Below are positions 11,178 through 48,635 of a stretch of 64,000 nt of DNA, piece by piece. Position 1 is the first letter of the stretch, and each line of letters begins with the position of its first letter. Under the pieces are notes generated by a model that searched no databases, was not told the origin of the DNA, and worked only from the letters and a program-made list of their open reading frames with translations. Source of the DNA: Caulobacter hibisci (lineage in GTDB: Bacteria > Pseudomonadota > Alphaproteobacteria > Caulobacterales > Caulobacteraceae); assembly GCF_016135805.1 (NCBI RefSeq), contig NZ_JADWOX010000009.1:124001-188000 (forward strand). Reading direction: 5' to 3'. The position numbers and the translations under genes were made by a program.

Positions 11178-11870
11178 TTACGACCTTAACTGGATAAGGC
11201 AGCTGCGTGGACGTTTCGGCGGCCTCGCCTCTCGCAAGCACGCCGCTAACTTATCCCGGTTCTGCGCCACGATCGCCGCCCCATCGCTACCGTCTTGCCA
11301 CTTCTGAGTATCAGCGGCTTGTAGCAACCGCTCCCCTGCGGGCCACAGACCCCGCTGTAGCGCATGCGCCGCCATCTTCTCCGGCCAGGCCCACCGCTCG
11401 GGCGCCGCCGTCGCCACGACACCAGGCAGGAAGACACCCAGAAAGGCCCCAGCCAGCAGGCCCACAGACCCCACCTGCAGCAGTCGCCAGTTCTGAGCGC
11501 TCGCCAGCCGGGCCCGATCGATCCATCCGTCAAGATCGCGCATCGCTCGCTGCAACCCATCCTGGGCCTGGCTCAGCGCCGCCCGATCCTGCCGCCGCAC
11601 CTCGCCCCCCGCCGCCGCGACCTGCCGCGCCACCTCTGACGGACTCATCGCCAGGCCCGGACTGGCCATCACTTTCCGCAGCCGCGCCCCCACCACCGAT
11701 AAGCCTTTAGAGATCTCACCCAGCGTCTCGCTGTAATCGGGCGCCGCCGCCCGCTCGGCCGCGAGCCCGGCCAACGCGACGTTCAGCAACGCCACCTCCC
11801 GCCGCAGCGCTTCGAACGCCGCCGCCGCCGGGTCGACCGGCGCCTCTGATCCGATCTCCTGCTCCATCAT
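11178..11870 (-). CDS. DUF6118-like protein with one membrane segment
   Basis: 230 residues. The N-terminal half is helical (AAAAFEALRREVALLNVALA). One hydrophobic segment follows (LLQVGSVGLLAGAFLGVFLP), and the C-terminus is basic with two Cys. This layout matches proteins annotated as DUF6118 that I recall directly behind TraA relaxase genes in alphaproteobacterial mobile elements. It starts six bases after the traA stop, so it is the last gene of the traA operon. A membrane role in mobilisation or entry exclusion is conceivable but unproven. Confidence 0.7.
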   Translation of the reverse strand: MMEQEIGSEAPVDPAAAAFEALRREVALLNVALAGLAAERAAAPDYSETLGEISKGLSVVGARLRKVMASPGLAMSPSEVARQVAAAGGEVRRQDRAALSQAQDGLQRAMRDLDGWIDRARLASAQNWRLLQVGSVGLLAGAFLGVFLPGVVATAAPERWAWPEKMAAHALQRGLWPAGERLLQAADTQKWQDGSDGAAIVAQNRDKLAACLREARPPKRPRSCLIQLRS

Positions 11871-11876
11871 GACCTC

Positions 11877-14740: not shown

Positions 14741-14765
14741 GGCGACAGACCACTTACGCCCTCAA

Positions 14766-14820
14766 GCGCACGTCGGCACGACGTATAAGCGCGCCCTCCC
14801 AGATAAGAATCTCGGGAGGG
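14766..14820. other. Candidate origin of transfer (oriT)
   Basis: In the 172 bases between traA and the divergent small tra gene there is a perfect inverted repeat, ACGTCG-GCA-CGACGT (14770-14784). It runs directly into TATAAGCGCGCCCTCCC (14784-14800), which resembles the nick region I recall for Ti-plasmid and RSF1010-type origins (GACGTATAA... and GCGCCCT). A second dyad CCCTCCC/GGGAGGG (14794-14800 and 14814-14820) follows. Location next to traA is where the Ti oriT lies. The nick site is inferred, not shown. Confidence 0.65.
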
Positions 14821-14912
14821 ACCGGGCCGTCCCAGTCTGCTCCGGCGACCTTACAGCATTCCGACAGCTGCTGTTTTATCCTGAACGCATCCCGCAATCG
14901 ATGGAGACTGCG

Positions 14913-15194
14913 ATGCGCAAACCCCGTGACTTCGACGCTGAACTGAAGAGCCTCGAAGACAAGGCCAAGACGCTGAAGGATCGCAAGGTCCGCCAGCTTG
15001 GCGAGCTGGTGATCGCCACCGGCGCCGACGCGCTAGAAATCGAGACCCTGGCCGGCGCGCTGCTTTGGATCACCGACTCCGGAGAGGCCGCCCGCAAGCA
15101 AGCCTGGACAAAGCGCGGCGCTGCCTTCTTTCGACGGGGCAAGGTCGAGCCCACACCTGCGGACGCTGCGCCAAGCGCTGGCGGCGGTCAGTGA
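14913..15194 (+). CDS. TraC/TraD-type small conjugal transfer protein
   Basis: 93 residues from ATG 14913, with GGAG at 14903-14906. MRKPRDFDAELKSLEDKAKT, then LKDRKVRQLGELVIATGADA: a basic coiled-coil helix followed by a short LGELV-ATGAD module. This is typical of the small accessory DNA-processing proteins encoded opposite traA in rhizobial and sphingomonad elements. By analogy it would help assemble the relaxosome at oriT. It is divergent from traA and followed at once by the TraD-like gene. Names in this small family are inconsistent, so no symbol is given. Confidence 0.75.
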   Translation: MRKPRDFDAELKSLEDKAKTLKDRKVRQLGELVIATGADALEIETLAGALLWITDSGEAARKQAWTKRGAAFFRRGKVEPTPADAAPSAGGGQ

Positions 15195-15270
15195 AGCCGA
15201 GCGACGGACCACAGCCGCGCGCCATCGCCTGGAAGCCCAGCGCGCCCGGTTCGACACGCGGGCCTGGGCG

Positions 15271-15498
15271 GTGAAGCGGCGAGAGCGGACCCGTCACTTG
15301 ATCGAGCTCGGCGGTCTCGTGCAAAAGGCCGGCCTCGTCGACCTCACGCGCGATGATCGCGCCGCGCTCTACGGCGCTTTCCTGACCCTGGCGGCGATGC
15401 TCAAGGCCGAAGACGGCGAGCACACCCTGGCGCTCTGGCGGCGCGGCGGGAAGCGGGCGTTCGAGGTGGAAGCCGAGGGCAAGAACGGCCAGAGCTGA
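15271..15498 (+). CDS. traD: TraD-like conjugal transfer protein
   Basis: 75 residues from GTG 15271: KRRERTRHLIELGGLVQKAG, the signature of the small TraD family (PF06412-like) of Ti-type transfer regions, then LTRDDRAALYGAFL and a basic end. The same frame stays open upstream through a helical, coding-looking stretch (RLEAQRARFDTRAWAV). It overlaps the end of the preceding gene but contains no ATG, GTG or TTG, only CTG at 15157 or 15166. The N-terminus is therefore uncertain. Its likely role is in DNA processing for mobilisation. Confidence 0.75.
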   Translation: MKRRERTRHLIELGGLVQKAGLVDLTRDDRAALYGAFLTLAAMLKAEDGEHTLALWRRGGKRAFEVEAEGKNGQS

Positions 15499-15580
15499 GG
15501 CCGGGCCATCACCGGCGCCGACCGCCCTCCCCTCGGAGACCATACGCCCTGGATCGCATGGTGGAACAAGGGCCGGACGG

Positions 15581-15658
15581 GCTGGTGCGCGTCAAGGGTG
15601 CGCGCCCTTGGGCGCGCATCGCGGAGCGACGGCGAAGCCGCCCTTGACCCGCACCAGA
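15581..15658. repeat. Nested inverted repeats after traD
   Basis: An outer pair, GCTGGTGCGCGTCAAGGG (15581-15598) and CCCTTGACCCGCACCAGA (15641-15658), matches at 16 of 18 positions. Inside it a perfect 9-bp hairpin TGCGCGCCC-TT-GGGCGCGCA occupies 15599-15618. The 282-base region 15499-15780 holds no gene. It could be a transcription terminator, a structured RNA or a second transfer-related site. Confidence 0.6.
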
Positions 15659-15780
15659 CCGCCCGGCAGACGCTCACCAAGCGCTCCAAGGCGAGCACCG
15701 ACCGTTCCGGTCCTGGCTCCCGCCACGGGAGAGGAAGACGCCAGGCGCTGCGGCCGGCCGACGCACCTAAGAAGAAAGGG

Positions 15781-16281
15781 CTAGCTGCCGCAGGTCGGCG
15801 TCCCACAGTTGGGACACCGGGTGATGCGCAGGTCTTCCATCGCCGACTTGAAGAGGTCGTAGCCGTCGCCCTGCTGGTGGATCATCACCTGTAGCGCCAC
15901 CTCCAGCTTGGCGACCGCGCCCTTCAGCTCATGGGCGCGCAGCTTGGGCAAGGCGTCGAGCCAATCGCGCTGGCGGTCGAACAGCGGCTTCAGCTCCGCG
16001 TCGATGGCGTTCATTTCCTCGGTGGGCGTCATCGCAACCCGCTCCTCGGGCGTCATGCGCTCCCACCGCCGCTGCTGGACGAGGATGGTCTCGAGGTCCG
16101 ACCAGCGGCTTAGCAAGCGATTGATCTGTGCGTCCAGCGCCAGCCATTCGGCGCAACGCGCCACCACGGGGTTGGCCGGAGCAGCAACGCCAACACCTGC
16201 ACCAGCAGCCAAGGGCGCAGCGCTGGCGGCGCCGATGACGACGCGGCGCGAGATCGGCAGCGGCCCCTTATCGTCGGACAT
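15781..16281 (-). CDS. Uncharacterised helical protein with Tat-like N-terminus (paralogue B)
   Basis: 166 residues. The N-terminus ISRRVVIGAASAAPLAAGAG resembles a short Tat-type signal (SRR plus hydrophobic stretch). A helical region rich in Trp and acidic residues follows (CAEWLALDAQINRLLSRWSD, TPEERVAMTPTEEM), ending RCPNCGTPTCGS, a three-Cys tail. It shares its plan with the first gene of this operon (17073-17567): SRR motif, CxxWLAxDAQ/EQ, PEERAA and a central acidic helix, so the two are diverged paralogues. Last gene of a tightly overlapping four-gene operon. Function unknown. Confidence 0.6.
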   Translation of the reverse strand: MSDDKGPLPISRRVVIGAASAAPLAAGAGVGVAAPANPVVARCAEWLALDAQINRLLSRWSDLETILVQQRRWERMTPEERVAMTPTEEMNAIDAELKPLFDRQRDWLDALPKLRAHELKGAVAKLEVALQVMIHQQGDGYDLFKSAMEDLRITRCPNCGTPTCGS

Positions 16282-16615
16282 CGGAGCGCTCCGGGTTGGG
16301 CAAAGACCGCGACGCCGGCCGACGGCGCTCGATCAGGTCGACCGTGCGCGAGACCTCGACCAGCGCCCTGGCGAACAGCGCCTGCACCTCGTCGGCCGAC
16401 AGGCCCATGTGGCGGGCGATGAAGCTGTAATCCAGCGCCTGGACGGCATTGAGCAGGAAGACGTCTCGCCGCTCCACCGGAAGCCGCATCACCGCATAGG
16501 ACATCACTTGCTGGACATTGTGTGGATCGAACGCCCGGCCGCGCCAGAGATCCGGATATCGCCAGCGCCACCACTGGCTCGGGCTAAGCGGCCACAGATT
16601 TCGCAGGAGGGTCAT
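16268..16615 (-). CDS. Sigma-70 region 4-like DNA-binding protein
   Basis: 115 residues. The middle (RLPVERRDVFLLNAVQALDY, SFIARHMGLSADEVQALFAR) follows the sigma region 4 pattern: P-x(3)-R-x-VF-LL, then an HTH ending in a RAL-like helix. No region 2 is present, so it is not a complete sigma factor. It may bind DNA or RNA polymerase as a regulator. It overlaps the genes on both sides by 4-14 bases, which indicates translational coupling in the operon 17567-15781. Confidence 0.6.
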   Translation of the reverse strand: MTLLRNLWPLSPSQWWRWRYPDLWRGRAFDPHNVQQVMSYAVMRLPVERRDVFLLNAVQALDYSFIARHMGLSADEVQALFARALVEVSRTVDLIERRRPASRSLPNPERSDVRR

Positions 16616-17076
16616 CGATGGTCTCCCTCGTCATCGATATCAAACCAGGAGGCGGCCGCGGTTACGGCGTCGATCAGCGCGCGCACGACCAGGCAGGCCC
16701 AAGCCCAATCCACCGCCAGGATGCTCTCCCTCGGCATCCGCGCGACGGTGTGGGTTTGGTAGAAGGGGCTCAGCAGCGCGGCCAAGTCGGCGAGCCCGGC
16801 GGGCTCAGCCCGAAAGCCCGCGCGCCTTGCTGACTTCAGCGCCTTGACGAGGTCGTGGCGAAGGTGGACCCGGTTCCAGTCGTCGGTGACGCCGCGATCC
16901 AGCAGATAGGCCTTCAGCGCCAGTTCGATGGCGATGGCCAGATGATAGCGCGTTCCCTCGGGATGGCGCTCCAGTGCGTGCTCGGCCGATAGCAGGAAGC
17001 TCGCCGCGTTACGTCGGAACGTCGACGCCAGGGGGCGGTCGGCGCCGTCTCGTCGGCGGGGTACGCGGCACGTCAT
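16612..17076 (-). CDS. HEPN-like protein
   Basis: 154 residues, mainly helical. The segment FRRNAASFLLSAEHALERH, then TRYHLAIAIELALKAYLLDR and LRHDLVKALKSARRAG, is the arrangement of HEPN-type four-helix proteins, in which a polar motif on the last helices (here LRHDL) can form an RNase site. The canonical RxxxxH motif is not clear, so nuclease activity is doubtful. It overlaps both neighbours by four bases. A role in toxin-antitoxin or nucleotide sensing is possible but speculative. Confidence 0.5.
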   Translation of the reverse strand: MTCRVPRRRDGADRPLASTFRRNAASFLLSAEHALERHPEGTRYHLAIAIELALKAYLLDRGVTDDWNRVHLRHDLVKALKSARRAGFRAEPAGLADLAALLSPFYQTHTVARMPRESILAVDWAWACLVVRALIDAVTAAASWFDIDDEGDHR

Positions 17077-17567
17077 TTGCCACAGAAGGCGGTCAGGTCA
17101 CGGGCCGCGCGGGTGATCAGGCCGTGAGCTTCTGGCTCGTCATCCTCGAAGATCAGGCAGGAGGCCACCATCAGGTTGGCGATCACCGCCTCGACGCTGG
17201 CGGCGGGCTTTGGCCGCATGCTCTTGAGTAAAGCAAGCCTCTCGACCTGCAGCACATCGAGGCGCGCGTCGATCTGCGCGAGCTTCTGGCCTTCCGGAAT
17301 GGCGGCGCGCTCATCTGGCGACAGGCGGTGCCATTGCATCTTCCGGATCAGCCAGCCTTCGAGCTGGCCCCACTCGGTCATCAGCCTCCGCTGCTCGGCG
17401 TCGACGGCGAGCCAGCGCTGGCAGAGCATCACGGCAGGATCGGGCTTGGCCGCAGGAGCCTGCAAGGTTGCCGTCAGCGGCGCTGTCGCGCCGCCTGCCA
17501 TCACGGCGCGCCTGGAGAGCTGGTCCAGACGCGCGGGCGTAGGCCCCGCCTTTCGACGTGACTCCAT
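17073..17567 (-). CDS. Uncharacterised helical protein with Tat-like N-terminus (paralogue A)
   Basis: 164 residues and the first gene of the leftward operon. LSRRAVMAGGATAPLTATLQ looks like a Tat-type or membrane-anchoring start; CQRWLAVDAEQRRLMTEWGQ and RLSPDERAAIPEGQK parallel the same places in the protein at 15781-16281. The C-terminus LITRAARDLTAFCGK differs from the Cys tail of its paralogue. It starts 15 bases from the divergent HTH gene, so both promoters must lie within overlapping coding starts or the HTH start is further in. Function unknown. Confidence 0.6.
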   Translation of the reverse strand: MESRRKAGPTPARLDQLSRRAVMAGGATAPLTATLQAPAAKPDPAVMLCQRWLAVDAEQRRLMTEWGQLEGWLIRKMQWHRLSPDERAAIPEGQKLAQIDARLDVLQVERLALLKSMRPKPAASVEAVIANLMVASCLIFEDDEPEAHGLITRAARDLTAFCGK

Positions 17568-17582
17568 GACCTCTGTCCTTTG

Positions 17583-17897
17583 ATGTGTATTAGTCGGTTT
17601 GCACCGTCACCACAGCACAATTTGCGATTAAAAGTGCCACCTCACATTAAAGATGACAAGGCGAAAATCACGGCTGGCCAGATTCGAGCCGCCCGAGGAC
17701 TTATTGACTGGAGCGGGCCGAACCTCGCTGAGGCTTCCGGAATAAGCCTTCATACGATCCGCCGAATGGAAACCATGGGCCCGGAGCGAAGCACCGCGGC
17801 GAATGTCCAGGCCGTGAAGCGCGCCCTCGAAGAAGCGGGCATCGTCTTCCAGGGGGAAAATGACGAATTTGGTGCGGGTGTTCGCCTGCGAAAATAG
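17583..17897 (+). CDS. XRE-type helix-turn-helix protein
   Basis: 104 residues from ATG 17583. GTG 17634 is a plausible alternative, which would free 66 bases for promoters shared with the divergent operon. The conserved part begins at ITAGQIRAARGLIDWSGPNL and continues LAEASGISLHTIRRMET, an HTH common in alphaproteobacterial genomes and prophages, ending KRALEEAGIVFQGENDEFGA. That ending (EAGIxF...GVRLR) is typical of this short family. It probably controls the divergent four-gene operon. A terminator follows at 17950. Confidence 0.8.
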   Translation: MCISRFAPSPQHNLRLKVPPHIKDDKAKITAGQIRAARGLIDWSGPNLAEASGISLHTIRRMETMGPERSTAANVQAVKRALEEAGIVFQGENDEFGAGVRLRK

Positions 17898-17949
17898 GCG
17901 CAGCCGACCGCAATAGACCGCATGCAGATGCAGCGGAGCAGCGCCCAGT

Positions 17950-17994
17950 ACTCCCTACCTACTCTTTTGCCGCAGGGAGTTTCTTTTTCTTTCC
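17950..17994 (+). terminator. Rho-independent terminator after the HTH gene
   Basis: ACTCCCT (17950-17956) pairs perfectly with AGGGAGT (17974-17980) and a T-rich run follows at once (17981-17994). The loop is 17 bases. Confidence 0.75.
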
Positions 17995-18095
17995 CACAGT
18001 ACGATCGGGTTGTTTGGGGGTCTTGCGGACGCTGTAACTCGATCCAATTCTGGCTCGTCGAATGCTTTCAGATCTCATTCTGTGGAGTCTAAGCC

Positions 18096-18308
18096 ATGGC
18101 CGAGCCCGATCGTATCCTGCGTATTCGCACTGTGCTGGCCCGGACGGGCCTTAGCCGATCCACCCTCTACCGGAAGATCAACGAGGGTTCGTTTCCCAAG
18201 CAGGTGGCGATCAGCGTTCACGGCGCCGGTTGGCGGGAGTCGGCGATCAACAGCTGGATCGCCGATCCGGCCGGCTATCACCAGGCCGCTCCCAAGGCGC
18301 ATACGTGA
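18096..18308 (+). CDS. AlpA-family phage/island regulator
   Basis: 70 residues: RILRIRTVLARTGLSRSTLY, then RKINEGSFPKQVAISVHGAG and W-RESAINSWI. This is the complete winged HTH pattern of AlpA-type excisionase-like regulators, which often control integrase genes of islands and prophages. No integrase is adjacent; the nearest one is at 51279. It lies between the mobilisation block and the restriction block, supporting an island origin of both. Confidence 0.9.
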   Translation: MAEPDRILRIRTVLARTGLSRSTLYRKINEGSFPKQVAISVHGAGWRESAINSWIADPAGYHQAAPKAHT

Positions 18309-18312
18309 CTCA

Positions 18313-18409
18313 TCTCTGACCTTGGGAAGGTCCGCTTCCTGGCGGTGGCCCTGCGCCGTCGGCCCAGGCCCGCGCCTGACTCTGACCTTGGGAAGTTCGG
18401 CTTCTGGCG
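18313..18409. repeat. Tandem pair of dispersed intergenic repeat
   Basis: Two direct copies of a roughly 30-base unit, CTCTGACCTTGGGAAGGTCC continuing GCTTCCTGGCG (18313-18344) and its variant with AAGTTCGGCTTCTGGCG (18379-18409). The unit contains a GGAAG/CTTCC dyad. A reverse-oriented relative is at 51109-51137, and its GGTCCG-TTCCTGG core is shared with the 45-base repeat family found later in the window. Confidence 0.65.
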
Positions 18410-18553: not shown

Positions 18554-20230
18554 ATGTCTAACGGGCAATCGCAGATCGGGTTCGAGCAGCTTGGACTTGG
18601 CTCAGTGCTCAAGAGATATCGCTTGTTGGTGCCGCCAAATCAACGAGATTATGCTTGGACAGAAAAGCACGTCACCAAGCTTCTCCAAGATCTCACTTTG
18701 GCGATTACCGAAGATGAACCGCAGCATTTTCTTGGAACCATTGTTACAATTCCAACCTCGGATGGTGTTCTCGAAGTAGTCGATGGTCAGCAGCGCCTTG
18801 CGACCACGGCTCTTATTCTTGCTGCAATGCGCCAAGTCGGCGGAGCGGAAAACGCCAAGCTGGCAAAAGCGCTTGAAACTTATATCATCGATATCGACAC
18901 GGCGACACTTGAGCTCGCTCCGAAGATGCAACTCAACGCTGCTGATAATCAAGTGTTCCATGAACTCCTTGAGTCAGGTTCGAGTAAATCAGCTCTGCCA
19001 AATCGTGAATCTCATCGACGCCTAATTGCAGCATTCGATGTCGCGCGAAAGCACCTTATAACGGTCGTTAAACCGATTGCGGAGTCTGAACGCCCTAAAG
19101 TATTTGTGCGATGGATGAACTTTATTGAGCATAAAGCTCGCGCTATACTATTAATAGTGCCCGATTCGGCCAACGCATTCAAAATGTTTGAGACTCTCAA
19201 TGACAGAGGCCTCAAAGTTTCTCAGTCTGATCTCGTAAAGAATTACGTCTTCGGTCAAGCCGATAAGCGCCTCGGCGAGGCGCAGCAAATTTGGTCGTAC
19301 ATCAAAGGCGCGCTGGAGACGTTAGACGAAGACGAAATAACCATGACGTTCCTTCGGCAAGCGCTTATTGCCATGAATGGATACATCACGGAACTTGAAG
19401 TATACGAAAGAGTGCAAAAGGCCGCGCGCGGCTCCCAGTCTTCTATTGCATTGCTATCGACGCTTGAAATTCTTTCAAACGATTATGTCGCCATTGCATC
19501 GGCCGACTCAGAGAAATGGAATGGATATCCCCATAAAACGCGCGAGCTGCTGCGCGTTTTGGATCTGTTCGATATTAAGCCATTTCGACCGTTGCTGCTT
19601 GCCATTGCGAATAAGTTTGAGCCAGCAGAAGCGGCCGATGCGTTTGAGAAGCTCGTGTCGTACGGCGTGCGTCTGATTATCGCTGCCAGCACTAGAACTG
19701 GCTCGGTTGAGCAGCCTCTCGCAAAAGCCGCGAAGCAAGTGTTCGATGGTGAAATTGTTACAGCCAAGTCAATGTCTGCAGCTCTCCTTTCTATCGTTCC
19801 GGCCGATGAAGTCTTCCAGCAGGCCTTCGAAATTGCAACCGTTTCGCAAGCTAAGTTCGCGCGTTATTATTTAAGATCAGTGGAGCTCGCCGCCAAAGGG
19901 CAAAGCGAGCCGTGGCTCATACCTAACGATAATCCAGAGGCGTTAAACCTCGAGCACATTCTGCCCCAAAAGCCGATGGCCAACTGGCCAGAATACGACG
20001 AAGATCAAGTTAGAGTTTACTCAAAGAGAATCGGCAATCTCGCTCTTCTTCAAGTAACTGCTAATTCAGACCTCAAAAGTGCTCCGTTCTCTGAAAAAGT
20101 GACTGTGTTTGGAGAGTCGGAATTGCTGACAACGAAGATGATATCTGAGCAAGCTGAATGGGCCCCGAAGTCAATCATTGAACGTCAGAAAGCATTGGCG
20201 AAGTGGGCTCTAACGGCATGGCCTCTGTAG
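18554..20230 (+). CDS. GmrSD-like restriction protein (DUF262 + HNH DUF1524)
   Basis: 558 residues. DUF262 signatures at the N-terminus: VPPNQRDYAW (26-35) and VDGQQR (76-81), the ParB-like nucleotide-handling site. The C-terminal DUF1524 HNH nuclease has LEHILP (466-471, His 468) and GNLALL with Asn 495. Fusions of this type belong to the GmrSD/type IV restriction group that cuts modified, often glucosylated, phage DNA. The coding sequence is visibly richer in A+T than all neighbours, so it was probably acquired separately. It is the first gene of a restriction island; about 190 bases separate it from the next gene. Confidence 0.85.
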   Translation: MSNGQSQIGFEQLGLGSVLKRYRLLVPPNQRDYAWTEKHVTKLLQDLTLAITEDEPQHFLGTIVTIPTSDGVLEVVDGQQRLATTALILAAMRQVGGAENAKLAKALETYIIDIDTATLELAPKMQLNAADNQVFHELLESGSSKSALPNRESHRRLIAAFDVARKHLITVVKPIAESERPKVFVRWMNFIEHKARAILLIVPDSANAFKMFETLNDRGLKVSQSDLVKNYVFGQADKRLGEAQQIWSYIKGALETLDEDEITMTFLRQALIAMNGYITELEVYERVQKAARGSQSSIALLSTLEILSNDYVAIASADSEKWNGYPHKTRELLRVLDLFDIKPFRPLLLAIANKFEPAEAADAFEKLVSYGVRLIIAASTRTGSVEQPLAKAAKQVFDGEIVTAKSMSAALLSIVPADEVFQQAFEIATVSQAKFARYYLRSVELAAKGQSEPWLIPNDNPEALNLEHILPQKPMANWPEYDEDQVRVYSKRIGNLALLQVTANSDLKSAPFSEKVTVFGESELLTTKMISEQAEWAPKSIIERQKALAKWALTAWPL

Positions 20231-20422
20231 GTTGGGGTAGGCTACCTCACACCCGGCGGCCCTCGAGCCAACTGTACGCGAGATCGGAGGCGGGGCGCAG
20301 CTGCCAGCCGTCCCGCGAGGGACGTAGCCAATCGATCAGTCATGAATCCCCACGCCGCCGCTTGCCAGTTGCGCGGGCCTTACCAACCGGGGCAAATGAG
20401 CGGCTAGGGGAGGAAACCGTCT

Positions 20423-23212
20423 TTGCGACTCAGCTGGAATGAAATCCGCGCCCGCGCCGCCGACTTCGCGCGCGAATGGGCCGACGCCCACTACGAGAAG
20501 GGCGAGACGCAGAGCTTCTACAACGACTTCTTCGAGGTCTTCGGCGTCCGCCGCCGCAAGGTCGCGACCTTCGAAGAGTCGGTCCGCCTGCTGGGCGAGA
20601 AGCGCGGCTTCATCGACCTGTTCTGGAAGAGCGTCCTGCTGGTCGAGCAGAAAAGCGCAGGCCGCGACCTCGTCCGCGCCCGCAAGCAGGCCCACGACTA
20701 TTTCCCCGGCCTCAAGGACCACGAGCTCCCGCGTTACATCCTGCTGTGCGATTTCCAGTTCTTCGAGCTGATCGACCTCGACACCCGCGAGGAGACCCGC
20801 TTCGCCCTCGCCGATCTGCCCGCCCATGTCGAGGCCTTCGGTTTCATCGTCGGGGTCGAGAAGCGGGTCTTCCAGGACCAGGACCCGGTCAACATCATCG
20901 CCGCCGAGCTGATGGGCAAGCTGCACGACGCCCTCAAGCCCACCTACGACGGCGCGCCGCTGGAGCGGCTGCTGGTGCGGTTGCTGTTCTGCCTGTTCGC
21001 CGACGACACCGGCATCTTCCCTGAACGGGGCATGCTGGAAACCTATCTGCGCGACCGCACCGCGTCCGACGGTTCAGACCTCGGCCCCAAGCTGAACCTG
21101 ATCTTCCAGACCCTAAACACTCCCGAGGACGCAGCCTGGCGCAAGGGACTGGACGAAGATTTGAACCTGTTTCCGTACGTCAACGGCGACCTGTTCCGCG
21201 AAGTCCTGCCTATCGCCAACTTCAACACGGCGATGCGCGACCGGCTGATCGAGGCCTGCGGCTTCTCGTGGGAGAAGATCAGCCCGGCCATTTTTGGCGC
21301 CCTGTTCCAGTCCGTGATGAATGCCAGGGAGCGCCGCGCCAAGGGCGCCCACTACACCACCGAAAAGAACATCCTAAAGGTCATCGAGCCGCTGTTCCTC
21401 GACGACCTCCGCGGCGAACTGTCCCGCATCAAGGGCATGAAGCGCGGTCGCGAGGCCGCCCTGCGGGCATTTCAGGACAAGCTGGCCGGGCTCAACCTGT
21501 TCGACCCCGCGTGCGGCTGCGGCAATTTCCTGATCATCGCGTATCGCGAACTCCGCGCGCTCGAGATCGAGGTGCTTAAGGCCCTCTATCCCACCGGCCA
21601 GCGCGAGCTTGAGGCCGCCGCCCTGTCCAAGGTGGACGTTGACCAGTTCTACGGCATCGAGGTCGATGAGTTCCCCGCCCGCATCGCCGAGACGGCGATG
21701 TGGATGATGGACCACATTATGAACAACCGGCTCAGCCTCGAGTTCGGCCAGGTCTTCGCCCGCATCCCTTTGAAGGCCGCGCCGCACATCGTTCATGGCG
21801 ATGCGTTGGAGACCGACTGGGCTGGGATATTGGCGCCGGAGCGGTGCAGCTATGTCTTCGGCAACCCGCCGTTTGTGGGGCAGAGCTTCCAGACCCCAGC
21901 GCAGCGCGTTCAAATGAAGAGAGTAATTGGTGCCGACAGTGGGCGCGGTGGATCGCTCGACTATGTGGGCGCGTGGTTTATCAAGGCAGGGGACTACCTC
22001 CGGAACTCCAGCGCTCGCATCGGCTTCGTATCGACCAACTCGATCACCCAAGGTGAGCAGGTCGCTCAGCTGTGGCCGCTGCTATTTCAACGCTACGGAC
22101 TTGAGATCGCTTTCGCCCATCGCACATTCGCGTGGGGCTCGGATGCCCGTGGCAAGGCCCACGTACATGTGGTCGTGATTGGGTTGGTCAAACGCGGTGA
22201 GGCTCCAGCAGAAAGGCGCCTATTCAGCTACGACGACATCAACGGCAATCCGGACGAAACTCGTCATTCGGTACTATCGCCTTACCTCTTCGACGCTTCA
22301 GCGCTGGGGGACCCGCATTTGGTTGTGAGAGAAGCCAGGCTGCCCATTGGTCTTATGCCGTCTTTGCGCATGGGATCGAAGATCGTCGATGACGGGCACT
22401 ACATCTTCACTCCGGACGAAAAGCGAGCGTTCCTGGCGGCCGAACCGGAGGCCGCACCCCTCTTTCGCCGGTTGGTGGGCGCCGTTGAGTTCATCAACGG
22501 TATTGAGCGATGGATTCTTCGCTTAGACAACGTCGAGCCTCAGACGATCCGCCGTTTGCCGCTAGTCGCAGAACGAGTTGCCGCCGTGCGTGCTTATCGT
22601 TCCAAAAGCCAGAAGTCGAAGACCCGGGAGCTCGCCGACCAACCGACCAAGTTCGAAGTCACGACCATTCCCGAGCGGCCGTTCCTAGCGATTCCGAAAG
22701 TGAGCTCCGAACGCCGCGAGTATCTGCCGATAGGTTGGTTGGAACCACCGACCCTGCCGAGTCAGTTGGTGCAAACTCTGGTGGATGCCACGCCGTGGCA
22801 GTTTGGACTACTCACGTCCAATATGCATATGGCCTGGATGCGGCACATCGGAGGGCGGCTGAAGAGCGACTATCAATACTCGATCGGCCTCGTCTACAAC
22901 GCCTTCCCTTGGCCCACACTGACCGAGGCTGACAAGTCGCGCCTAAACGGACTTGCCCAAGCGGTGCTGGACGCCCGCGCCGCCCATCCGGGGGCGACAC
23001 TGGCCGACCTGTACGATCCCGACGTCATGCCGGCCGACTTGCGCCGCGCGCATCGGGCGCTGGATCAGGCTGTCGGCCGCCTCTACCGCAAGGCACCGTT
23101 CGACAGTGACCGCGAGCGGGTCGAACACCTGTTCACCCTGTATGAGAAGATGACGGCGGGTTTGCTTGTCGCGCCGTCGAAGTCCAAACGGCGCAAGAAA
23201 GCCGACGCCTGA
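20423..23212 (+). CDS. MmeI-like type IIL restriction-modification enzyme
   Basis: 929 residues, start TTG 20423 behind GGGGAGGAAA. Single-chain layout: N-terminal PD-(D/E)xK nuclease (D65, E75-x-K77 in LLVEQKSAG), helical connector, N6-adenine methyltransferase with motif I DPACGCGNFL (361-370) and motif IV NPPF (481-484), then target-recognition and helical C-terminal regions. MmeI-type enzymes methylate one strand and cut about 20 bases away. All catalytic motifs are present, so it looks functional. The stop codon overlaps the start of the Mrr gene (TGATG), so the two are coupled. Confidence 0.88.
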   Translation: MRLSWNEIRARAADFAREWADAHYEKGETQSFYNDFFEVFGVRRRKVATFEESVRLLGEKRGFIDLFWKSVLLVEQKSAGRDLVRARKQAHDYFPGLKDHELPRYILLCDFQFFELIDLDTREETRFALADLPAHVEAFGFIVGVEKRVFQDQDPVNIIAAELMGKLHDALKPTYDGAPLERLLVRLLFCLFADDTGIFPERGMLETYLRDRTASDGSDLGPKLNLIFQTLNTPEDAAWRKGLDEDLNLFPYVNGDLFREVLPIANFNTAMRDRLIEACGFSWEKISPAIFGALFQSVMNARERRAKGAHYTTEKNILKVIEPLFLDDLRGELSRIKGMKRGREAALRAFQDKLAGLNLFDPACGCGNFLIIAYRELRALEIEVLKALYPTGQRELEAAALSKVDVDQFYGIEVDEFPARIAETAMWMMDHIMNNRLSLEFGQVFARIPLKAAPHIVHGDALETDWAGILAPERCSYVFGNPPFVGQSFQTPAQRVQMKRVIGADSGRGGSLDYVGAWFIKAGDYLRNSSARIGFVSTNSITQGEQVAQLWPLLFQRYGLEIAFAHRTFAWGSDARGKAHVHVVVIGLVKRGEAPAERRLFSYDDINGNPDETRHSVLSPYLFDASALGDPHLVVREARLPIGLMPSLRMGSKIVDDGHYIFTPDEKRAFLAAEPEAAPLFRRLVGAVEFINGIERWILRLDNVEPQTIRRLPLVAERVAAVRAYRSKSQKSKTRELADQPTKFEVTTIPERPFLAIPKVSSERREYLPIGWLEPPTLPSQLVQTLVDATPWQFGLLTSNMHMAWMRHIGGRLKSDYQYSIGLVYNAFPWPTLTEADKSRLNGLAQAVLDARAAHPGATLADLYDPDVMPADLRRAHRALDQAVGRLYRKAPFDSDRERVEHLFTLYEKMTAGLLVAPSKSKRRKKADA

Positions 23213-24069
23213 TGGCCACCGCCGCTGATGTTCCCACCCACGAAGCCTTCATGTGGCCGATCATCGAACGGCTGAAGGCTCATGGGCGGTCCATGAGCAA
23301 TGCGGAGATGCTGGAAGACGTGGCCCAGCACATGGGCCTAAGCGAAGACGTTCTGGCCGTCCGGGTCGGCAAGTTTAATGAACTCGCCGTGGCCCAGCGG
23401 CTGGGTTTTGCCCGAAGCTGGTTGAAGCTGGCCGGCGTGGTCGATAACAGCCAGCGCGGCGTCTGGACTTTGACGCCGGCGGGCGCGGACATAACGCCGA
23501 TTGAGCTCGCGGAGAATATGCGACAGGTCCAGCGCAGCTATAGCCGAAAAGTGCGGGAGGCGCGCGACCAGCCTGTCGAGCCGGGCACGGTTGCTGGTGA
23601 GGAGGCCTCAGGCGACTGGAAGGACCAACTGATGGCGCAGCTGCTGGTCCTCGACCCCTCCGCCTTCGAACGTCTCTGCCAACGCCTCCTGCGCGAGTAC
23701 GGCTTCATCAAGGTCGAGGTGACCGGCAAGTCCGGCGACGGCGGCATCGACGGCACTGGGGTGCTGCGGGTTAACCTGCTGTCCTTCCACGTCCTGTTCC
23801 AGTGCAAGCGCTACTCCGGCTCAGTAGGGGCGGGCGCCGTGCGCGACTTCCGTGGTGCGATGGTGGGGCGCACCGACAAGGGGCTAATCATCACCACAGG
23901 AACCTTCACCGCCGATGCCCGACGCGAGGCTACCCGCGACGGCGCGCCGGCCATCGATCTGGTCGACGGCGACGCTCTGTGCGACCTGCTAAAGGATCGC
24001 GGGCTGGGTGTAAGGGTGCGGATGGTCGAGGAAGTGACCGTCACCGAAGCGGCGTTCGCGGACTTCTGA
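23212..24069 (+). CDS. mrr: Mrr-like type IV restriction endonuclease
   Basis: 285 residues. The N-terminal winged-helix Mrr_N domain spans about residues 8-100 (HEAFMWPIIERLKAHGRSMS, ending GVWTLTPAGAD). The C-terminal Mrr_cat domain has AFERLCQRLLREYGF, the GGID motif with Asp 180 and Q197-C-K199. Together these form the PD-(D/E)xK-type site of Mrr enzymes, which cleave methylated DNA. Co-occurrence with a methyltransferase-containing MmeI-like enzyme is notable, since the Mrr must tolerate that methylation. Start ATG 23212 overlaps the upstream stop. Confidence 0.9.
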   Translation: MATAADVPTHEAFMWPIIERLKAHGRSMSNAEMLEDVAQHMGLSEDVLAVRVGKFNELAVAQRLGFARSWLKLAGVVDNSQRGVWTLTPAGADITPIELAENMRQVQRSYSRKVREARDQPVEPGTVAGEEASGDWKDQLMAQLLVLDPSAFERLCQRLLREYGFIKVEVTGKSGDGGIDGTGVLRVNLLSFHVLFQCKRYSGSVGAGAVRDFRGAMVGRTDKGLIITTGTFTADARREATRDGAPAIDLVDGDALCDLLKDRGLGVRVRMVEEVTVTEAAFADF

Positions 24070-24470
24070 CCCAATCCGCCTGAGGTTGTTGATCCAGCAT
24101 AGGTCAAGTCGCGTTACGAGCGACGACCCGAAGCCTCGCGAAGCTTGACAATAGATCGAACGCGGCCTTGGCGGGGGTAATATACACATCAGACCTAAGT
24201 CTTGTCGGCTTTCGCAGCGCGGCAACACCGGTGTTGAGGCGCACCAACGCCCGCCGGGCGATGACGATCCGCTCGACTTAGGTCTCAATGTCGCGTTTTC
24301 TTGGGCGAAGCTGATGTCCGGTTCGGGCGCTGCTCCCGCCGCTCCACGTAGATCGGTGCATACTTCAGCGCGCGAGCGATGTGGCAACGCTTGGGCGCGC
24401 CGCAGCCGCAATTTCTGCTGAGCCCATACGGGATGAGTGCTAGGCTTGGCCCGTCATCCCCGCGCGGACC
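24070..24470. other. Intergenic region with structured segment
   Basis: 400 bases between the Mrr gene and the DUF4238 gene with no supported gene. It contains the inverted-repeat element at 24191-24285, described separately, and the promoter region of the DUF4238 gene. Confidence 0.5.
24191..24285. repeat. 95-bp element with perfect 11-bp terminal inverted repeats
   Basis: AGACCTAAGTC (24191-24201) and GACTTAGGTCT (24275-24285) are exact inverted repeats. Between them lies a perfect 14-bp palindrome, CAACACCGGTGTTG (24223-24236). Such nesting could be a folded RNA, a MITE-like relic or a protein-binding site. No target-site duplication was recognised. Confidence 0.55.
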
Positions 24471-25730
24471 ATGCCAGCAACGCTCTACACCGACACCCTG
24501 ATCCGCAAGAGGGATCCGACCCTTGCCGAGGACAAGGTCCAGGCGCTGGCCGCGGTGTGGGACGAGGTTGTCCAGCGGATCATCAAAGCCCTGTTCGATC
24601 TCGAAAAGGCAGTCGAACGCGAACTGCATATCAACATGAAGGCCGAGATGGCGTTCGAATTGGCCCGGCTGATGCTGTTCTACGCCGAGCGGGTCGTCGA
24701 TAAGCGCGTCGGCGAACGACGCTTGCAGGACATCGACCCGCAAGCAGAGCGGGCTGAATGCCTTGGCCCGGAGGGCGAGGGGATCATCATGGAGACCGCT
24801 CGGATCGGCCACGAGCACATCTGGTCCAAGAAGATGGACGAGCGATGGACGCCCAAATCGCGAAAAGCGCTTGAGCTTGAGAAGACGCCGCGCCTGCCTG
24901 GAAAGCTCGCGGTCAAGACCGTCACGGACAAGCATTTCATCAGCCGCTGGTTCATTCGCGACTTTTGGGCCGACGGCCCGTCCGCGACGCGGTGGAAACG
25001 CAAGGACGGCGAGTGGGCGGGCGACGCGATCTTGTTCGCCCAATGGGGTCACCGCACCGGCCTATGGGACGACCGCGTCGAGGCCTATTTCGCGCTGCTG
25101 GAGAATGACGGCAAGCAGCCGATCGAGATGCTGCTGCAGACCATCCCACTCAACCAGCCTCAGCAGCTGGCGTTCGTCGGCTATCTCGTAATCCACCTAC
25201 TGCGAAGTCCGCGCTTCATCGGCCAGCTTCGGGTGTCGATGCGCGATATGCTCGACGAAGCCGCTCGCGACGCCGGCATCGAGTTCGATGAAATGGCGCG
25301 CCGCGCTTACGCGACCCTCTTCACGGAAAACCAAATCTACAACGCCTACTCGCGCCCAATCATGTGGAGCCAGTGGGCGATCTTGACGGCGCAAAAGCCG
25401 GTCTTTGTTCTGCCGGACACCTTCTGCGCACGCGGCTCGATCGACGGTGAACATCGCCTGATCGTCCCGCTGACGCCGACGAAATGTTTCGTCACCCTGG
25501 CGGCCAAGGAGGAGGAAAAGCGGGTGGTCCCCTTTTCCCATACTGCCGACCCTGCTCTTGCCTCGGCCATATCCCAGCTCCTGGTCGAAGCCGCTCAGGA
25601 CGACTTTCTGGCCCATCGCGACTTCGCGCCCGCCAAGGCTGACCCGTCGGTAAATTTCGCCAAGGTGCTTGAGGCCCTAGGCGAGGCGCTCGGCGATGAA
25701 CCCCAGGACGCCTACCCGTCGGCGCCGTGA
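24471..25730 (+). CDS. DUF4238-like protein, possible defence component
   Basis: 419 residues from ATG 24471. The first 130 residues are acidic and helical. The conserved DUF4238 elements follow: DKHFISRWFIRDFW, then a helical middle (QQLAFVGYLVIHLLRSPRF), SRPIMWSQWAILTAQKPVFV and the closing IVPLTPTKCFVTL. DUF4238 proteins have an unknown biochemical role and are often found near restriction and abortive-infection genes. The position here, in line with three restriction genes, agrees with that. No membrane segment is seen. Confidence 0.7.
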   Translation: MPATLYTDTLIRKRDPTLAEDKVQALAAVWDEVVQRIIKALFDLEKAVERELHINMKAEMAFELARLMLFYAERVVDKRVGERRLQDIDPQAERAECLGPEGEGIIMETARIGHEHIWSKKMDERWTPKSRKALELEKTPRLPGKLAVKTVTDKHFISRWFIRDFWADGPSATRWKRKDGEWAGDAILFAQWGHRTGLWDDRVEAYFALLENDGKQPIEMLLQTIPLNQPQQLAFVGYLVIHLLRSPRFIGQLRVSMRDMLDEAARDAGIEFDEMARRAYATLFTENQIYNAYSRPIMWSQWAILTAQKPVFVLPDTFCARGSIDGEHRLIVPLTPTKCFVTLAAKEEEKRVVPFSHTADPALASAISQLLVEAAQDDFLAHRDFAPAKADPSVNFAKVLEALGEALGDEPQDAYPSAP

Positions 25731-27103: not shown

Positions 27104-27148
27104 AACGCCCGGTTCCTGGAAGCGGTCCTAAGATCGCTTTTGGCGCCA
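27104..27148 (+). repeat. Dispersed intergenic repeat, copy 2
   Basis: GAACGCCCGGTTCCTGGAAG ... ATCGCTTTTGGCGCC, with an AAGCG/CGCTT stem. It lies in the roughly 300-base gap between the vWA and VOC genes, which holds no other recognisable feature. Confidence 0.6.
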
Positions 27149-27316
27149 GCCAGCCGATCCGCGACCTCGTCCGCAGCGACCCCGCCCAGGCTCGTGCAAA
27201 CGCGATCTACCATCGCTGCTATAGCAATCGTTGCTTCCAGTGCGCGTTATGCGCCACCCGATCTATAACGGCCACGCAAGGTTGGACATGCTTGGGACCT
27301 CAGGGGAGCACCATGA

Positions 27317-27760
27317 ATGAAGGCGTTCTTGAAACCAGTATTCGCGATCGCCTTTGCGCTCGCCTGTCAGGCGGCGGCCATGGCTGAGCCGATCGGCCGT
27401 GTGACCGGCATTGGGGGCGTGTTCGTCAAAAGCAAGGATCCCAAAGCCCTGGCGAACTGGTATCGCGATGCCCTTGGCTTGGATGTCGCCGCCTGGGGCG
27501 GTGCGGCGCTGCCTTACGATGCGCCGGGCCACCCGCCTAAGATCTCCTGGATGGCCTTCCCAGACACCTCCGACCACATGGCGCCATCAACGCGCGAGTT
27601 CATGGTCAACTTCGCCGTGGATGACATGGATGCGATTAGCACTCGGCTGCGGGCGTCAAACGTCGCCATTTTAAAGCGCGACGACGACAATGCCTTCGGA
27701 CGGTTTGCCTGGGTGCAAGACCCCGACGGCACGCTGGTTGAGTTGTGGCAGCCTAAATGA
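27317..27760 (+). CDS. Exported VOC/glyoxalase-fold protein
   Basis: 147 residues from ATG 27317. A signal peptide (FAIAFALACQAAAMAEP) is followed by one VOC module: GIGGVFVKSKDPKALANWYR, DALGLDV, ... FAWVQDPDGTLVELWQPK, with the usual metal-binding type residue Glu in VELW. VOC proteins include glyoxalases, dioxygenases and drug-binding proteins; a periplasmic member is unusual and its substrate cannot be predicted. It converges on a short HTH gene. Confidence 0.85.
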   Translation: MKAFLKPVFAIAFALACQAAAMAEPIGRVTGIGGVFVKSKDPKALANWYRDALGLDVAAWGGAALPYDAPGHPPKISWMAFPDTSDHMAPSTREFMVNFAVDDMDAISTRLRASNVAILKRDDDNAFGRFAWVQDPDGTLVELWQPK

Positions 27761-27763
27761 GCC

Positions 27764-28078
27764 CTACGGACCTGGCGCGGGTTCGGCCCCACGCCGCCAT
27801 GGGGTCAGAACCTCGTAGCGGGTCACGTCGGTGGTGCCGGACCGGGTGGGGCGTATCAGGTCTCGCTCGGCAAGATGGATCACCGCGGCCTGAACGCTGC
27901 GCTTTGACAGTCCGGTCCGCTCCGCCAACTGGGCGTGACTGAGGCGAGGGCGGGTATCGCCCAGGGCCGCCAAGGCTAGATAGACCAGAAACGCCGAGGC
28001 CCGGTGATCGTGACCCACCAGGTCGCGCATGAGAGTGTCGAGGACATAGGCGTCCACCGTGTACTGCTTGTTGCTCAT
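27764..28078 (-). CDS. Winged-helix (MarR/HTH) regulator
   Basis: 104 residues from the ATG at 28078. The HTH is in AQLAERTGLSKRSVQAAVIH, LAERDLIRPTRSG, with a wing after it; the N-terminus (VDAYVLDTLMRDLVGHDHRA) is helical and may dimerise. This resembles short helix-turn-helix proteins related to MarR or replication-type regulators. It is divergent from the VOC gene at 28145, which it may control. Confidence 0.8.
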   Translation of the reverse strand: MSNKQYTVDAYVLDTLMRDLVGHDHRASAFLVYLALAALGDTRPRLSHAQLAERTGLSKRSVQAAVIHLAERDLIRPTRSGTTDVTRYEVLTPWRRGAEPAPGP

Positions 28079-28144
28079 CGGACTAGCCGATACCACGCGG
28101 GTCTCTGGTCGCAAGTTGACGGCCTGTGGCGTGGAAACTGGCTG

Positions 28145-28504
28145 GTGATCAAGAAGCTCAACTATGTTGGAATTCCAACCAGAGATCAGGAGCGGGCCCT
28201 AGCCTTTTGGACAGGCGTCATGGGGTTTATCATCACGACGGATCGCCCGATCGGCGACAGGCGCTGGATCGAACTCTCCATCCCAGGCGCCCAAACCGGC
28301 ATCTTGCTCTTCACGCCGGAAGGTCACGAAGACAGAGTTGGCACCTTTTTCAACGGTTCCTTTGGCTGTGACAGCGTGCAGTACGAATACGAACGACTGC
28401 TGGAAAAGGGGGTGACCTTTTTGGCGCCGCCAGAGTTAAAGCCTTTCCCTCATGTCTATTTCCAGGATCCGGACGGGAATACGTTCTTTCTATCAAGCCG
28501 ATGA
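28145..28504 (+). CDS. VOC-family protein (bleomycin-resistance fold)
   Basis: 119 residues from GTG 28145 (MIKKLNYVGIPTRDQERALA). A single VOC domain: FWTGVMGFIITTDRPIGDRR, the central GILLFTPEGHEDRV and the end HVYFQDPDGNTFFLSSR. The order and length match the glyoxalase/bleomycin-resistance group; metal ligands are not definite. Cytoplasmic. It is divergent from the HTH regulator at 27764-28078. Substrate unknown. Confidence 0.85.
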   Translation: MIKKLNYVGIPTRDQERALAFWTGVMGFIITTDRPIGDRRWIELSIPGAQTGILLFTPEGHEDRVGTFFNGSFGCDSVQYEYERLLEKGVTFLAPPELKPFPHVYFQDPDGNTFFLSSR

Positions 28505-28558
28505 CGGATTGCCGCTCAATCTACCGGGTGGTTCGTGTCACCGGCAGACAAGCTCGCT

Positions 28559-28603
28559 GAGCGTCGCCTTCCTGGAGAGATCGTCGAGTCCGCAATTGGC
28601 GCA
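28559..28603 (+). repeat. Dispersed intergenic repeat, copy 3
   Basis: GAGCGTCGCCTTCCTGGAGA ... GTCCGCAATTGGCGCAC, adjacent to the nhaA leader. Confidence 0.55.
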
Positions 28604-44687: not shown

Positions 44688-45977
44688 CTACGGCGCTAGC
44701 GTGAGCCTCAACGCAAGAGCCGCCAGCGTGATCAGCAAGATCGGGGTGGTCAGCACGATCCCGATCTTGAAGTAGTAGCCCCAGGAGATCTTGATTCCCT
44801 TGGCGCTGAGGACGTGCAGCCAGAGCAGCGTGGCCAGCGACCCGATCGGGGTGATCTTCGGACCCAGGTCGCTGCCGATGACATTGGCGTAGATCATCGC
44901 CTCCTTGACCGCGCCAGTCGCGCCGCTGGCGTCGATCGACAGGGCACCGACCAGGACGGTGGGCATGTTGTTCATCACCGAGGACAGGAGCGCCGTCAGG
45001 ATGCCGGTGCCGAAGGCCGCGCCCCACACCCCGCCCTTGGCGAACTGGTTGAGCAGGCCGGCGATCTGATCGGTGAGGCCGGCGTTCCGCAGACCGTAGA
45101 CGACCAGGTACATTCCCAGGGAGAACACCACGACCTGCCAAGGCGCGCCCTTGAGCACCTTTCGGGTGCTGATCACATGGCCACGGCCGGCGATCGTCAG
45201 CAGCACCACGGCCCCGACCGCCGCCGTCGCGCTGACCGGCACGCCGAGCGGCTCCAAGGCGAAGAAGCCGATCAGCAGCAGCGCCAACACGAGGAAGCCG
45301 GCCTTGAAGGTCGCCGGATCCTTGATCGCCTCGCGCGGCGGCTTCAGCTGGCCGACGTCATAGGTCGCGGGGATGTCGCGCCGGAAGTAGAGCAGCAGCG
45401 CGCCAAGCGTGGCGGCGATGGCCGCCAGATCGACCGGGATCATCACCGAAGCATAGCGGGCAAAGCCGATCTTGAAGAAGTCGGCCGAGACGATGTTGAC
45501 CAGGTTGGAGACCACCAGCGGCAGGCTGGCCATGTCGGCGATGAAGCCCGCCGCCATCACGAAGGCCAGGGTCGCCTTGTCCTTGAATCCCAGGGCCATG
45601 AGCATGGCGATGACGATCGGCGTCAGGATCAGGGCCGCGCCGTCATTGGCGAACAGCGACGACACCGCCGCGCCCAGCAGCACAATCGAGGCGAACAGCA
45701 ATCGGCCCTTGCCGCCGCCCCAGCGCGCGACGTGCAGGGCCGCCCACTCGAAGAACCCGGCCTCGTCGAGCAGCAGGCTGATGATGATCACGGCGATGAA
45801 GGCGCCCGTGGCGTTCCAAACGATCTGCCAGACCGTGGCGATGTCGCCCATGTGGACGACGCCGGTCGCCAGGGCCAGCACGGCGCCGACGCTGGCGCTC
45901 CAGCCGATGCTGAGGCCTTTGGGCTGCCAGATGACCAGGGTGATGGTGAGCAGGAAGATCAGGAGGGCGAGGATCAC
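44688..45977 (-). CDS. arsB: ArsB arsenite efflux permease
   Basis: 429 residues with about 11-12 membrane segments. Features of the ArsB/NhaD family: [20 protein letters not shown] and the paired [13 protein letters not shown], plus [20 protein letters not shown] near the C-terminus, the conserved ArsB repeat. It is a proton-coupled As(III)/Sb(III) exporter in the inner membrane. It overlaps the end of arsC by four bases and is last in the arsR-arsC-arsC-arsB order; no arsA was found. Confidence 0.95.
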
Positions 45978-46387: not shown

Positions 46388-46417
46388 GGCTCACCAGGAA
46401 AAGCAGAACGATAGGGA

Positions 46418-47325: not shown

Positions 47326-47347
47326 GTTTCCAATATGCTGGAAATAT
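47324..47347. promoter_or_regulatory. ars operator palindrome
   Basis: TTTCCA-ATATGC-TGGAAA (47327-47344), flanked symmetrically by AT bases, a perfect dyad between the divergent arsR and arsH. It abuts the arsR start codon and lies about 35 bases before the arsH start. It is the likely ArsR binding site controlling both directions. Confidence 0.75.
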
Positions 47348-48631: not shown

Positions 48632-48635
48632 CGCC

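Follow-up and report, generated by a model that had tools for sequence, protein, structure and literature searches.

Four genes standing in series behind an AlpA-type regulator in Caulobacter hibisci (Caulobacteraceae) raise the question of whether they form one defence system or were gathered as separate modules, and whether the last of them, a DUF4238-like gene, serves defence at all. We analysed a window of 64,000 nucleotides (RefSeq GCF_016135805.1, contig NZ_JADWOX010000009.1, positions 124,001 to 188,000, forward strand), with coordinates counted from window base 1 and the block of interest at 18554-25730. The sequence and its open reading frames hold four intact, uninterrupted frames 3' of AlpA:

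18554-20230, + strand, GmrSD-type (DUF262-DUF1524) single-chain enzyme (PF03235, PF07510, PADLOC HEC-06)
20423-23212, + strand, MmeI-type (Type IIL) restriction-modification enzyme, TTG start (five MmeI Pfam domains, PADLOC, 5hr4)
23212-24069, + strand, Mrr-type nuclease (PF14338, PF04471, PADLOC mREase_IV)
24471-25730, + strand, divergent DUF4238 protein (PF14022 below cut-off, hhalign, relatives L005, L006, L007)

Frames and family matches thus agree with the earlier note, which had read GmrSD-, MmeI- and Mrr-like genes serially on one strand, followed by DUF4238. Very probably the block is a defence island of separately acquired modules, inserted in the variable slot of a conjugative or mobilizable element between AlpA and the integrase end; the island is real and of an ordinary kind. 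Gene content, intact motifs, homology that runs gene by gene and a slot whose content changes carry this reading.

The modules would act side by side rather than as a single machine. The MmeI-type enzyme would mark its own site by adenine methylation of a single strand and cleave DNA that is not methylated. The other two enzymes, of GmrSD type and Mrr type, would be modification-dependent nucleases acting on DNA with foreign base modifications, and DUF4238 would be a stand-alone anti-phage gene. We infer the activities of all four proteins and a defence role in the host, and, from family membership, the cutting of modified DNA by the GmrSD-type and Mrr-type enzymes.

A variable slot behind AlpA

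The backbone of the element lies upstream of the block and comprises the following features:

11178-11870, - strand, DUF6118 gene, element backbone (Pfam, NCBIfam)
12065-14740, - strand, TraA Ti-type relaxase (Pfam, NCBIfam)
14739-15194, + strand, TraD (Pfam, NCBIfam)
15781-17567, - strand, four backbone genes, one of them weakly similar to HEPN, below the cut-off
17580..17897, + strand, small regulator-like frame with a weak CapH-type match (PADLOC capH 2.7e-4)
18096-18308, + strand, AlpA-type regulator (PF05930, 2.2e-17), the final conserved gene ahead of the variable slot

The AlpA gene lies just 5' of the block, as expected from the restriction island behind an AlpA regulator that had been proposed. 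Backbone DNA is 85% identical across 7.1 kb to genome G158, whose AlpA copy is 98.6% identical. Backbone proteins matched with their order kept in L109, L110, L111 and L023/L024, and in L115 for TraA and TraD only. Matches to the CapH-like frame (54-65% identical) adjoin AlpA in L008, L109 and L110 and adjoin the backbone in L112.

TraA, TraD and AlpA are common to seven loci (the window and six others), and what follows AlpA differs: in the six other loci the slot holds different genes or leads directly to an integrase. The slot is not reserved for defence: it can hold NhaA or a kinase gene of chemotaxis type, or be empty of cargo, in three of the seven loci. Left out of this count were L113, L114 and L116, which matched AlpA only, and L112, where backbone genes accompany a tRNA-Arg on a stretch without an AlpA or TraA match. 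In the window this variable slot, at the AlpA end of an element whose relaxase is a Ti-type TraA, is taken by the four-gene block. Neither a complete integrase nor a tRNA turned up in the 64-kb window, where the sole trace was an integrase piece of 208 residues, and the integrases of G607 and G173 found no match in it; the integrase end of the window's own copy is putative.

The E. coli immigration control region gathers defence genes that include Mrr and GmrSD types (PMC12707154). The present locus resembles this region and the P2/P4 hotspots in having a fixed site with changing defence content (PMC12707154, PMC9122126), and differs from those E. coli hotspots in being a Caulobacteraceae element with a Ti-type relaxase and a slot adjoining AlpA. 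It illustrates clearly how defence-type genes gather at one set place in a mobile element of the Caulobacteraceae.

The DUF4238 protein and its neighbours

Against PF14022 the window protein scored 23.8 bits (cut-off 27; E 3.5e-5; residues 155-376), and its relative L007 scored 23.4 bits. A genome search with PF14022 did not report the window copy in its own genome and likewise reported none in 14 control genomes. Profile comparison with hhalign gave homology over the greater part of the domain between the branch alignment A1 (four rows) and A2 (probability 96.9%, E 1.9e-10, 223 columns). The start motif (HFI/HYI for the canonical HHYVP) and the P-D / PLTP region align with the family. Unlike canonical members, the four proteins of the branch (window, L005, L006, L007) all carry roughly 150 additional residues at the N terminus, and identity in the profile alignment is 10%; the likeness is judged at the level of the family. 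These comparisons support the window protein as a putative remote DUF4238 member. PADLOC gave it no match; relatives of the protein or its branch were absent from plasmids, phages and IMG/VR, canonical queries found none in phages or IMG/VR, and a sequence search of solved structures returned no credible DUF4238 match. AlphaFold on the single sequence gave a mean pLDDT of 44.0 and a pTM of 0.31.

An E. coli prophage encodes a DUF4238 protein that made E. coli strongly resistant to T7 (Rousset 2022, PMC9122126), and later surveys count DUF4238 among defence systems (PMC10855318, PMC12629846, PMC11291487). The earlier note had called DUF4238 a family without known function, which stands for its molecular function and not for its effect, since a member blocks T7 (PMC9122126). 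It had also made the gene a defence candidate on the strength of its position; the candidacy is likely correct, and the main argument for it is the T7 resistance reported in 2022. The window gene thus belongs, distantly, to a family with one phage-blocking member already known, and the defence argument has experimental backing for that member.

It is nevertheless possible, though we think it rather unlikely, that the gene is passenger cargo of the element and not defence. Besides the PF14022 match below cut-off, NhaA and the kinase gene occupy the slot too, and the L005 copy (Phenylobacterium) has no convincing defence neighbour: seven upstream frames gave two weak PADLOC matches (LeoA, LeoBC), both to one frame. 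Canonical DUF4238 genes were sampled in five plasmid regions and 14 class loci, a small set with a mixed outcome and no control set. All five plasmid regions opened, out of nine matched records, placed the gene no more than 8 kb from Hachiman, SIR2, restriction or AAA genes, four of them carrying one closely related group. In class genomes the neighbourhoods of the 14 canonical loci were mostly ordinary; among 23 neighbour frames no listed PADLOC family had more than one matching frame, and five of the matches were better than 1e-10 (STK_OB, SoFic, PDC-S24, PDC-S04, mREase_IV). Against a passenger role, the family has its proven member (PMC9122126), and three of the four branch members (window, L007, L006) adjoin defence-type, toxin-antitoxin or mobile-element genes: L006 (in G490) adjoins an AbiEii gene, and L007 stands alongside a canonical DUF4238 gene and a DUF2971 gene matching PDC-S31.

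The restriction enzymes and their pairing

The GmrSD-type protein combines DUF262 and DUF1524 domains (GmrSD_N 4.9e-32, GmrSD_C 2.2e-23 in Pfam), matches PADLOC HEC-06 at 2.4e-149 and keeps its DGQQR and EHILP motifs intact, the former presumably a conserved motif of the GmrSD family. EHxxP is named as the family motif in PMC12707154. In domains and motifs the protein resembles the GmrSD / BrxU single-chain Type IV enzymes and HEC-06; it stands apart from the solved ones, its best solved relative by sequence (9jfl) reaching merely 66.5 bits.

The MmeI-type protein carries, in one chain, nuclease, helical spacer, methylase, target-recognition and C domains (PF20464, 20465, 20473, 20466 and 20467, all above cut-off, best 1.4e-85), scores 1168.6 bits for PADLOC REase_MTase_IIG and, along residues 1-925 of its 929, aligns with the MmeI structure 5hr4 (E 3.8e-287). 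Residue mapping placed the nuclease D-E-K at D65, E75 and K77, opposite what we take to be the catalytic residues of MmeI (positions 70, 80, 82), and found the methylase motifs FDPACGCGNF and NPPF. All of this is MmeI-like; the specificity residues are not, with K814/D816 at MmeI 806/808, and also K759/Q781 and L782/Q818, and because of these differences the site should not be TCCRAC. A K-D pair at MmeI 806/808 specifies G:C at base 6 (PMC4833311), and the recognition site is predicted to end in AG, as a non-palindromic six-base sequence with N6-methyladenine at base 5.

The third protein resembles E. coli Mrr in joining a winged-helix Mrr_N domain (8e-15) to Mrr_cat (1.6e-30), here with QCK as its QxK site, and matches PADLOC mREase_IV at 1e-27. 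The host genome encodes CcrM, whose site is also that of the G6mANTC mark. The PD-QxK motif of Mrr is defined in PMC12707154, where M.HhaII methylation (G6mANTC) is described as triggering E. coli Mrr. Since the window enzyme, unlike E. coli Mrr, coexists with this mark, its specificity is probably different. The claim that the enzymes must be mutually compatible was therefore sound, and stronger than first stated: the Mrr-type enzyme would have to spare DNA marked by MmeI as well as DNA bearing the GANTC mark of CcrM. This makes the locus a neat test case of an Mrr-type enzyme that shares its cell with GANTC methylation, a trigger of E. coli Mrr.

The Mrr start overlaps the MmeI stop (TGATG), which hints at a coupled two-gene system, translated together, in which Mrr would add a second cut or would cut wrongly adenine-methylated DNA while sparing the MmeI mark. 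Mrr matches occurred in 46 of 289 genomes; an MmeI-type or IIG-type gene adjoins Mrr in 3 of the 29 other loci examined for neighbours (L060, L072, L082) and in L183, and the pairing reappears in three of the 20 longer stretches examined (L089, L099, L100). The closest Mrr relative (L060/L089, 52%) lies about 10 bases beyond a 1193-residue IIG-type frame. Order and kinship vary, however (divergent IIG upstream in L089 and L183, MmeI downstream in L099, a 44-residue remnant in L100), and the next relatives (L090-L093) have neighbours that looked ordinary by eye. From the MmeI side, Mrr was found in 1 of 19 family loci (L183) and in none of 29 class loci, the latter an undercount, since the pair in G250 escaped it and numerous flanks begin within the gene. 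The pairing recurs only occasionally, and we regard coupling as distinctly improbable.

Slightly less credible still is a joint reading in which the N-extended DUF4238 branch would be a distinct set of defence proteins that elements of the Caulobacteraceae have spread, and MmeI-Mrr a translationally coupled two-layer system whose Mrr would read foreign adenine methylation and, unlike E. coli Mrr, ignore the MmeI and CcrM GANTC marks.

Separately acquired modules remain the preferred reading. The four genes do not look like one system because the G+C of GmrSD (49.2%) differs from that of MmeI, Mrr and DUF4238 (62.4, 65.0 and 62.4%) and because DNA matches stop near gene ends, at 20385-23217 for the MmeI relative L168 (79% at the amino acid level), 20432-23145 for L169 and 24393-25714 for the DUF4238 relative L005 (9.9 kb upstream and about 270 bases downstream compared). 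Mrr, GmrSD and DUF4238 were absent from the examined flanks of the MmeI relatives L168-L172 (54-79% identical). That all four genes, DUF4238 included, make up one multi-part system is highly implausible: they are adjacent, on one strand and behind one regulator, but are set apart by 192 and 401 bp at two junctions and differ in G+C, MmeI and DUF4238 relatives occur without the other block genes, and no flank of GmrSD, MmeI or Mrr relatives (no more than roughly 1.5 kb on each side, longer for one Mrr set) held at least three of the four.

The spacing along the block (192 bp, the 1-bp MmeI/Mrr overlap, 401 bp) does not suggest one operon, an idea we reject in view of spacing, G+C and single-gene homology. 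A relic of an MmeI gene in L138 matches window bases 20407-20759 at the DNA level. The terminator scan gave four sites versus 7.5 in shuffles, none of them on the + strand of the Mrr-DUF4238 gap, and the promoter scan gave five promoter-like sites where shuffles averaged 2.2 (sd 1.8).

Composition of the island

The earlier note described GmrSD-, MmeI- and Mrr-like genes and a DUF4238 gene in series on one strand, and this is borne out, as all four reading frames are intact and lie on the + strand:

18096-18308, AlpA (domain match)
18554-20230, + strand, GmrSD-type gene
20423-23212, + strand, MmeI-type gene
23212-24069, + strand, Mrr-type gene
24471-25730, + strand, DUF4238-like gene

Pfam assigned three of the proteins with certainty, the GmrSD-type by PF03235 and PF07510, the MmeI-type by its five domains and the Mrr-type by PF14338 and PF04471, and PADLOC concurred (HEC-06 and further GmrSD-like models, REase_MTase_IIG and mREase_IV, respectively). 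The alignment to the MmeI structure 5hr4 spanned residues 1 to 925 of the MmeI-type protein, and residue mapping placed the nuclease triad at D65, E75 and K77, taking MmeI positions 70, 80 and 82 to be the catalytic ones; methylase motifs were also present. The whole locus is real, well formed and explicable by known parts, its points of note being the remote DUF4238 branch and the compatibility of the Mrr-type enzyme with CcrM.

One island in a variable slot

The four genes form one island and do not look like one system. Their G+C content is 49.2% (GmrSD), 62.4% (MmeI), 65.0% (Mrr) and 62.4% (DUF4238), with 64.7% for the window. DNA matches to three MmeI relatives from Caulobacteraceae were confined to window positions 20385-23217 (L168), 20432-23145 (L169) and 20407-20759 (L138), and represent the gene without its island neighbours; no Mrr, GmrSD or DUF4238 gene was found in the covered flanks of relatives L168-L172. 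The L138 match (L138:1503-1855) is an N-terminal remnant of 112 residues, 94% identical, in another Caulobacteraceae genome. Similarly, the Phenylobacterium copy of the DUF4238-like gene (L005) matched window positions 24393-25714 alone, with 9.9 kb upstream and ~270 bases downstream of the match covered. Prevalence is unequal: counting weak matches, the MmeI-type gene matched in 44 and the GmrSD-type gene in 9 of 139 family genomes, and the Mrr-type gene in 46 of 289 genomes of Alphaproteobacteria.

The MmeI stop and Mrr start overlap (TGATG), which suggests coupled translation of this pair in the window. Elsewhere the pairing is recurrent but occasional, and its gene order is not constant. 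Among the 29 other Mrr loci examined, three were accompanied by an MmeI/IIG-type gene, and the same three pairs reappeared among 20 wider stretches. One of these pairs contains the nearest Mrr relative (L089, 52%), where the IIG-type frame is divergent. The next four relatives (L090-L093) had ordinary-looking neighbourhoods, judging translations by eye. From the MmeI side, Mrr lay beside 1 of 19 family loci and 0 of 29 class loci examined, the latter an undercount that missed a pair in G250, because many flanks begin inside the MmeI gene.

Window positions 11257-18350 matched genome G158 (85% identical, 7.1 kb). TraA, TraD and AlpA occurred together at seven loci in six genomes, and the slot after AlpA varies, as different genes follow:

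Window: GmrSD
G158: RNase_T/DEDDh exonuclease; PIN-type gene further on
G607: NhaA, then integrase
G173: integrase directly after AlpA, beside tRNA-Ser
G138, contig C175: CheB/CheR-kinase gene
G138, contig C11: Xre-RES pair and PIN gene
G149: SoFic-type Fic and AbiEii gene

Counting the G158 genes generously, 4 of the 7 loci carry defence or toxin-antitoxin content.

Elsewhere in the window, a row of four backbone genes (15781-17567), function unknown, recurs beside TraA/TraD in several genomes; two are paralogue-like (cross-matches about 29-38%), and one of the four matches HEPN weakly. A 208-residue frame at 51279-51905 matched Phage_integrase (6.2e-17), the integrases of related elements being longer (395 and 459 residues). 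A heavy-metal region (44688-62063) encodes ArsB, a low-molecular-weight phosphatase, two P-type ATPases, a multicopper oxidase and CopB, and its stretch 44700-48605 adjoins the same relaxase backbone in G607. The stretch 27141-28602, which includes two glyoxalase-like genes, is present a second time in this genome, on contig C15 (92% identical).

Predicted specificity of the Mrr- and MmeI-type enzymes

The genome encodes CcrM (L167:697-1800, E 8.1e-237 to 6pbd), which methylates GANTC. Passages of PMC12707154 report that expression of M.HhaII (G6mANTC) in E. coli gave Mrr-dependent SOS phenotypes. E. coli Mrr is triggered by this mark, whereas the Mrr-type gene coexists with a CcrM gene that makes it, so the Mrr-type enzyme, if active, probably has another specificity.

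In MmeI, the K806-D808 pair is described as exclusive for G:C at base 6 (passages of PMC4833311). The MmeI-type enzyme has K814 and D816 at these places, so its predicted recognition site should end in A-G, with that A methylated. The other specificity pairs are K759/Q781 and L782/Q818, and the prediction is confined to the last two bases of the site.

The DUF4238-like gene and its family

PF14022 aligned to residues 155-376 of the fourth protein, but the score of 23.8 bits falls short of the cut-off (27), and a PF14022 search of the genome did not report the gene. It belongs to a branch of four proteins, with L005 (93%), L007 (49%) and L006 (38%), which have some 150 residues at the N terminus in common. 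Because a profile of this branch matched a profile built from 17 canonical DUF4238 proteins with a probability of 96.9% over 223 columns (profile-profile comparison), the gene most likely encodes a remote DUF4238 protein. The branch is rare, with members in 3 of the 199 family genomes and in 2 of the 385 from the class (this genome included in both); canonical DUF4238 occurred in 14 of 289 class genomes. L007 lies on the G158 contig about 12 kb from AlpA, near a canonical DUF4238 gene and a DUF2971 gene matching PDC-S31.

DUF4238 is a defence family already in print: one DUF4238 protein, found in a hotspot of P2-like prophages, by itself gave "strong resistance against T7", its molecular function being unknown (PMC9122126), and passages of PMC10855318, PMC12629846 and PMC11291487 name it among defence systems. 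The earlier note had argued for defence from location; the direction of that argument holds, its basis giving way to the stronger published evidence (PMC9122126).

The neighbours of canonical DUF4238 genes gave a divided answer. Among nine matching plasmid records we opened five regions. Close to canonical DUF4238, L162 has SIR2 and UvrD genes, L163 has HamA together with a restriction endonuclease, L164 has HamA and a helicase that DUF4238 follows 3 bases on, L165 has PD-(D/E)XK and AAA genes, and L166 has a SIR2 gene and an integrase; these are not independent, since 4 of 5 carry one closely related DUF4238 group. In class genomes, however, neighbours were mostly ordinary-looking (23 neighbour frames, 14 loci, PADLOC): in all, 26 PADLOC families were matched, with one frame behind every one of the 25 listed, and five matches among those listed were stronger than 1e-10 (STK_OB, SoFic, PDC-S24, PDC-S04 and mREase_IV).

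In one DUF4238 passage from each of three papers that name both DUF4238 and Hachiman, no linkage of the two was described. On the plasmids, the DUF4238 gene comes after Hachiman (L164:3611-9023 and L163:3612-9029) or SIR2 plus UvrD (L162:3888-9041). This group spans six plasmid records with 67-93% identity to the A. tumefaciens copy, which begins 3 bases past the Hachiman helicase.
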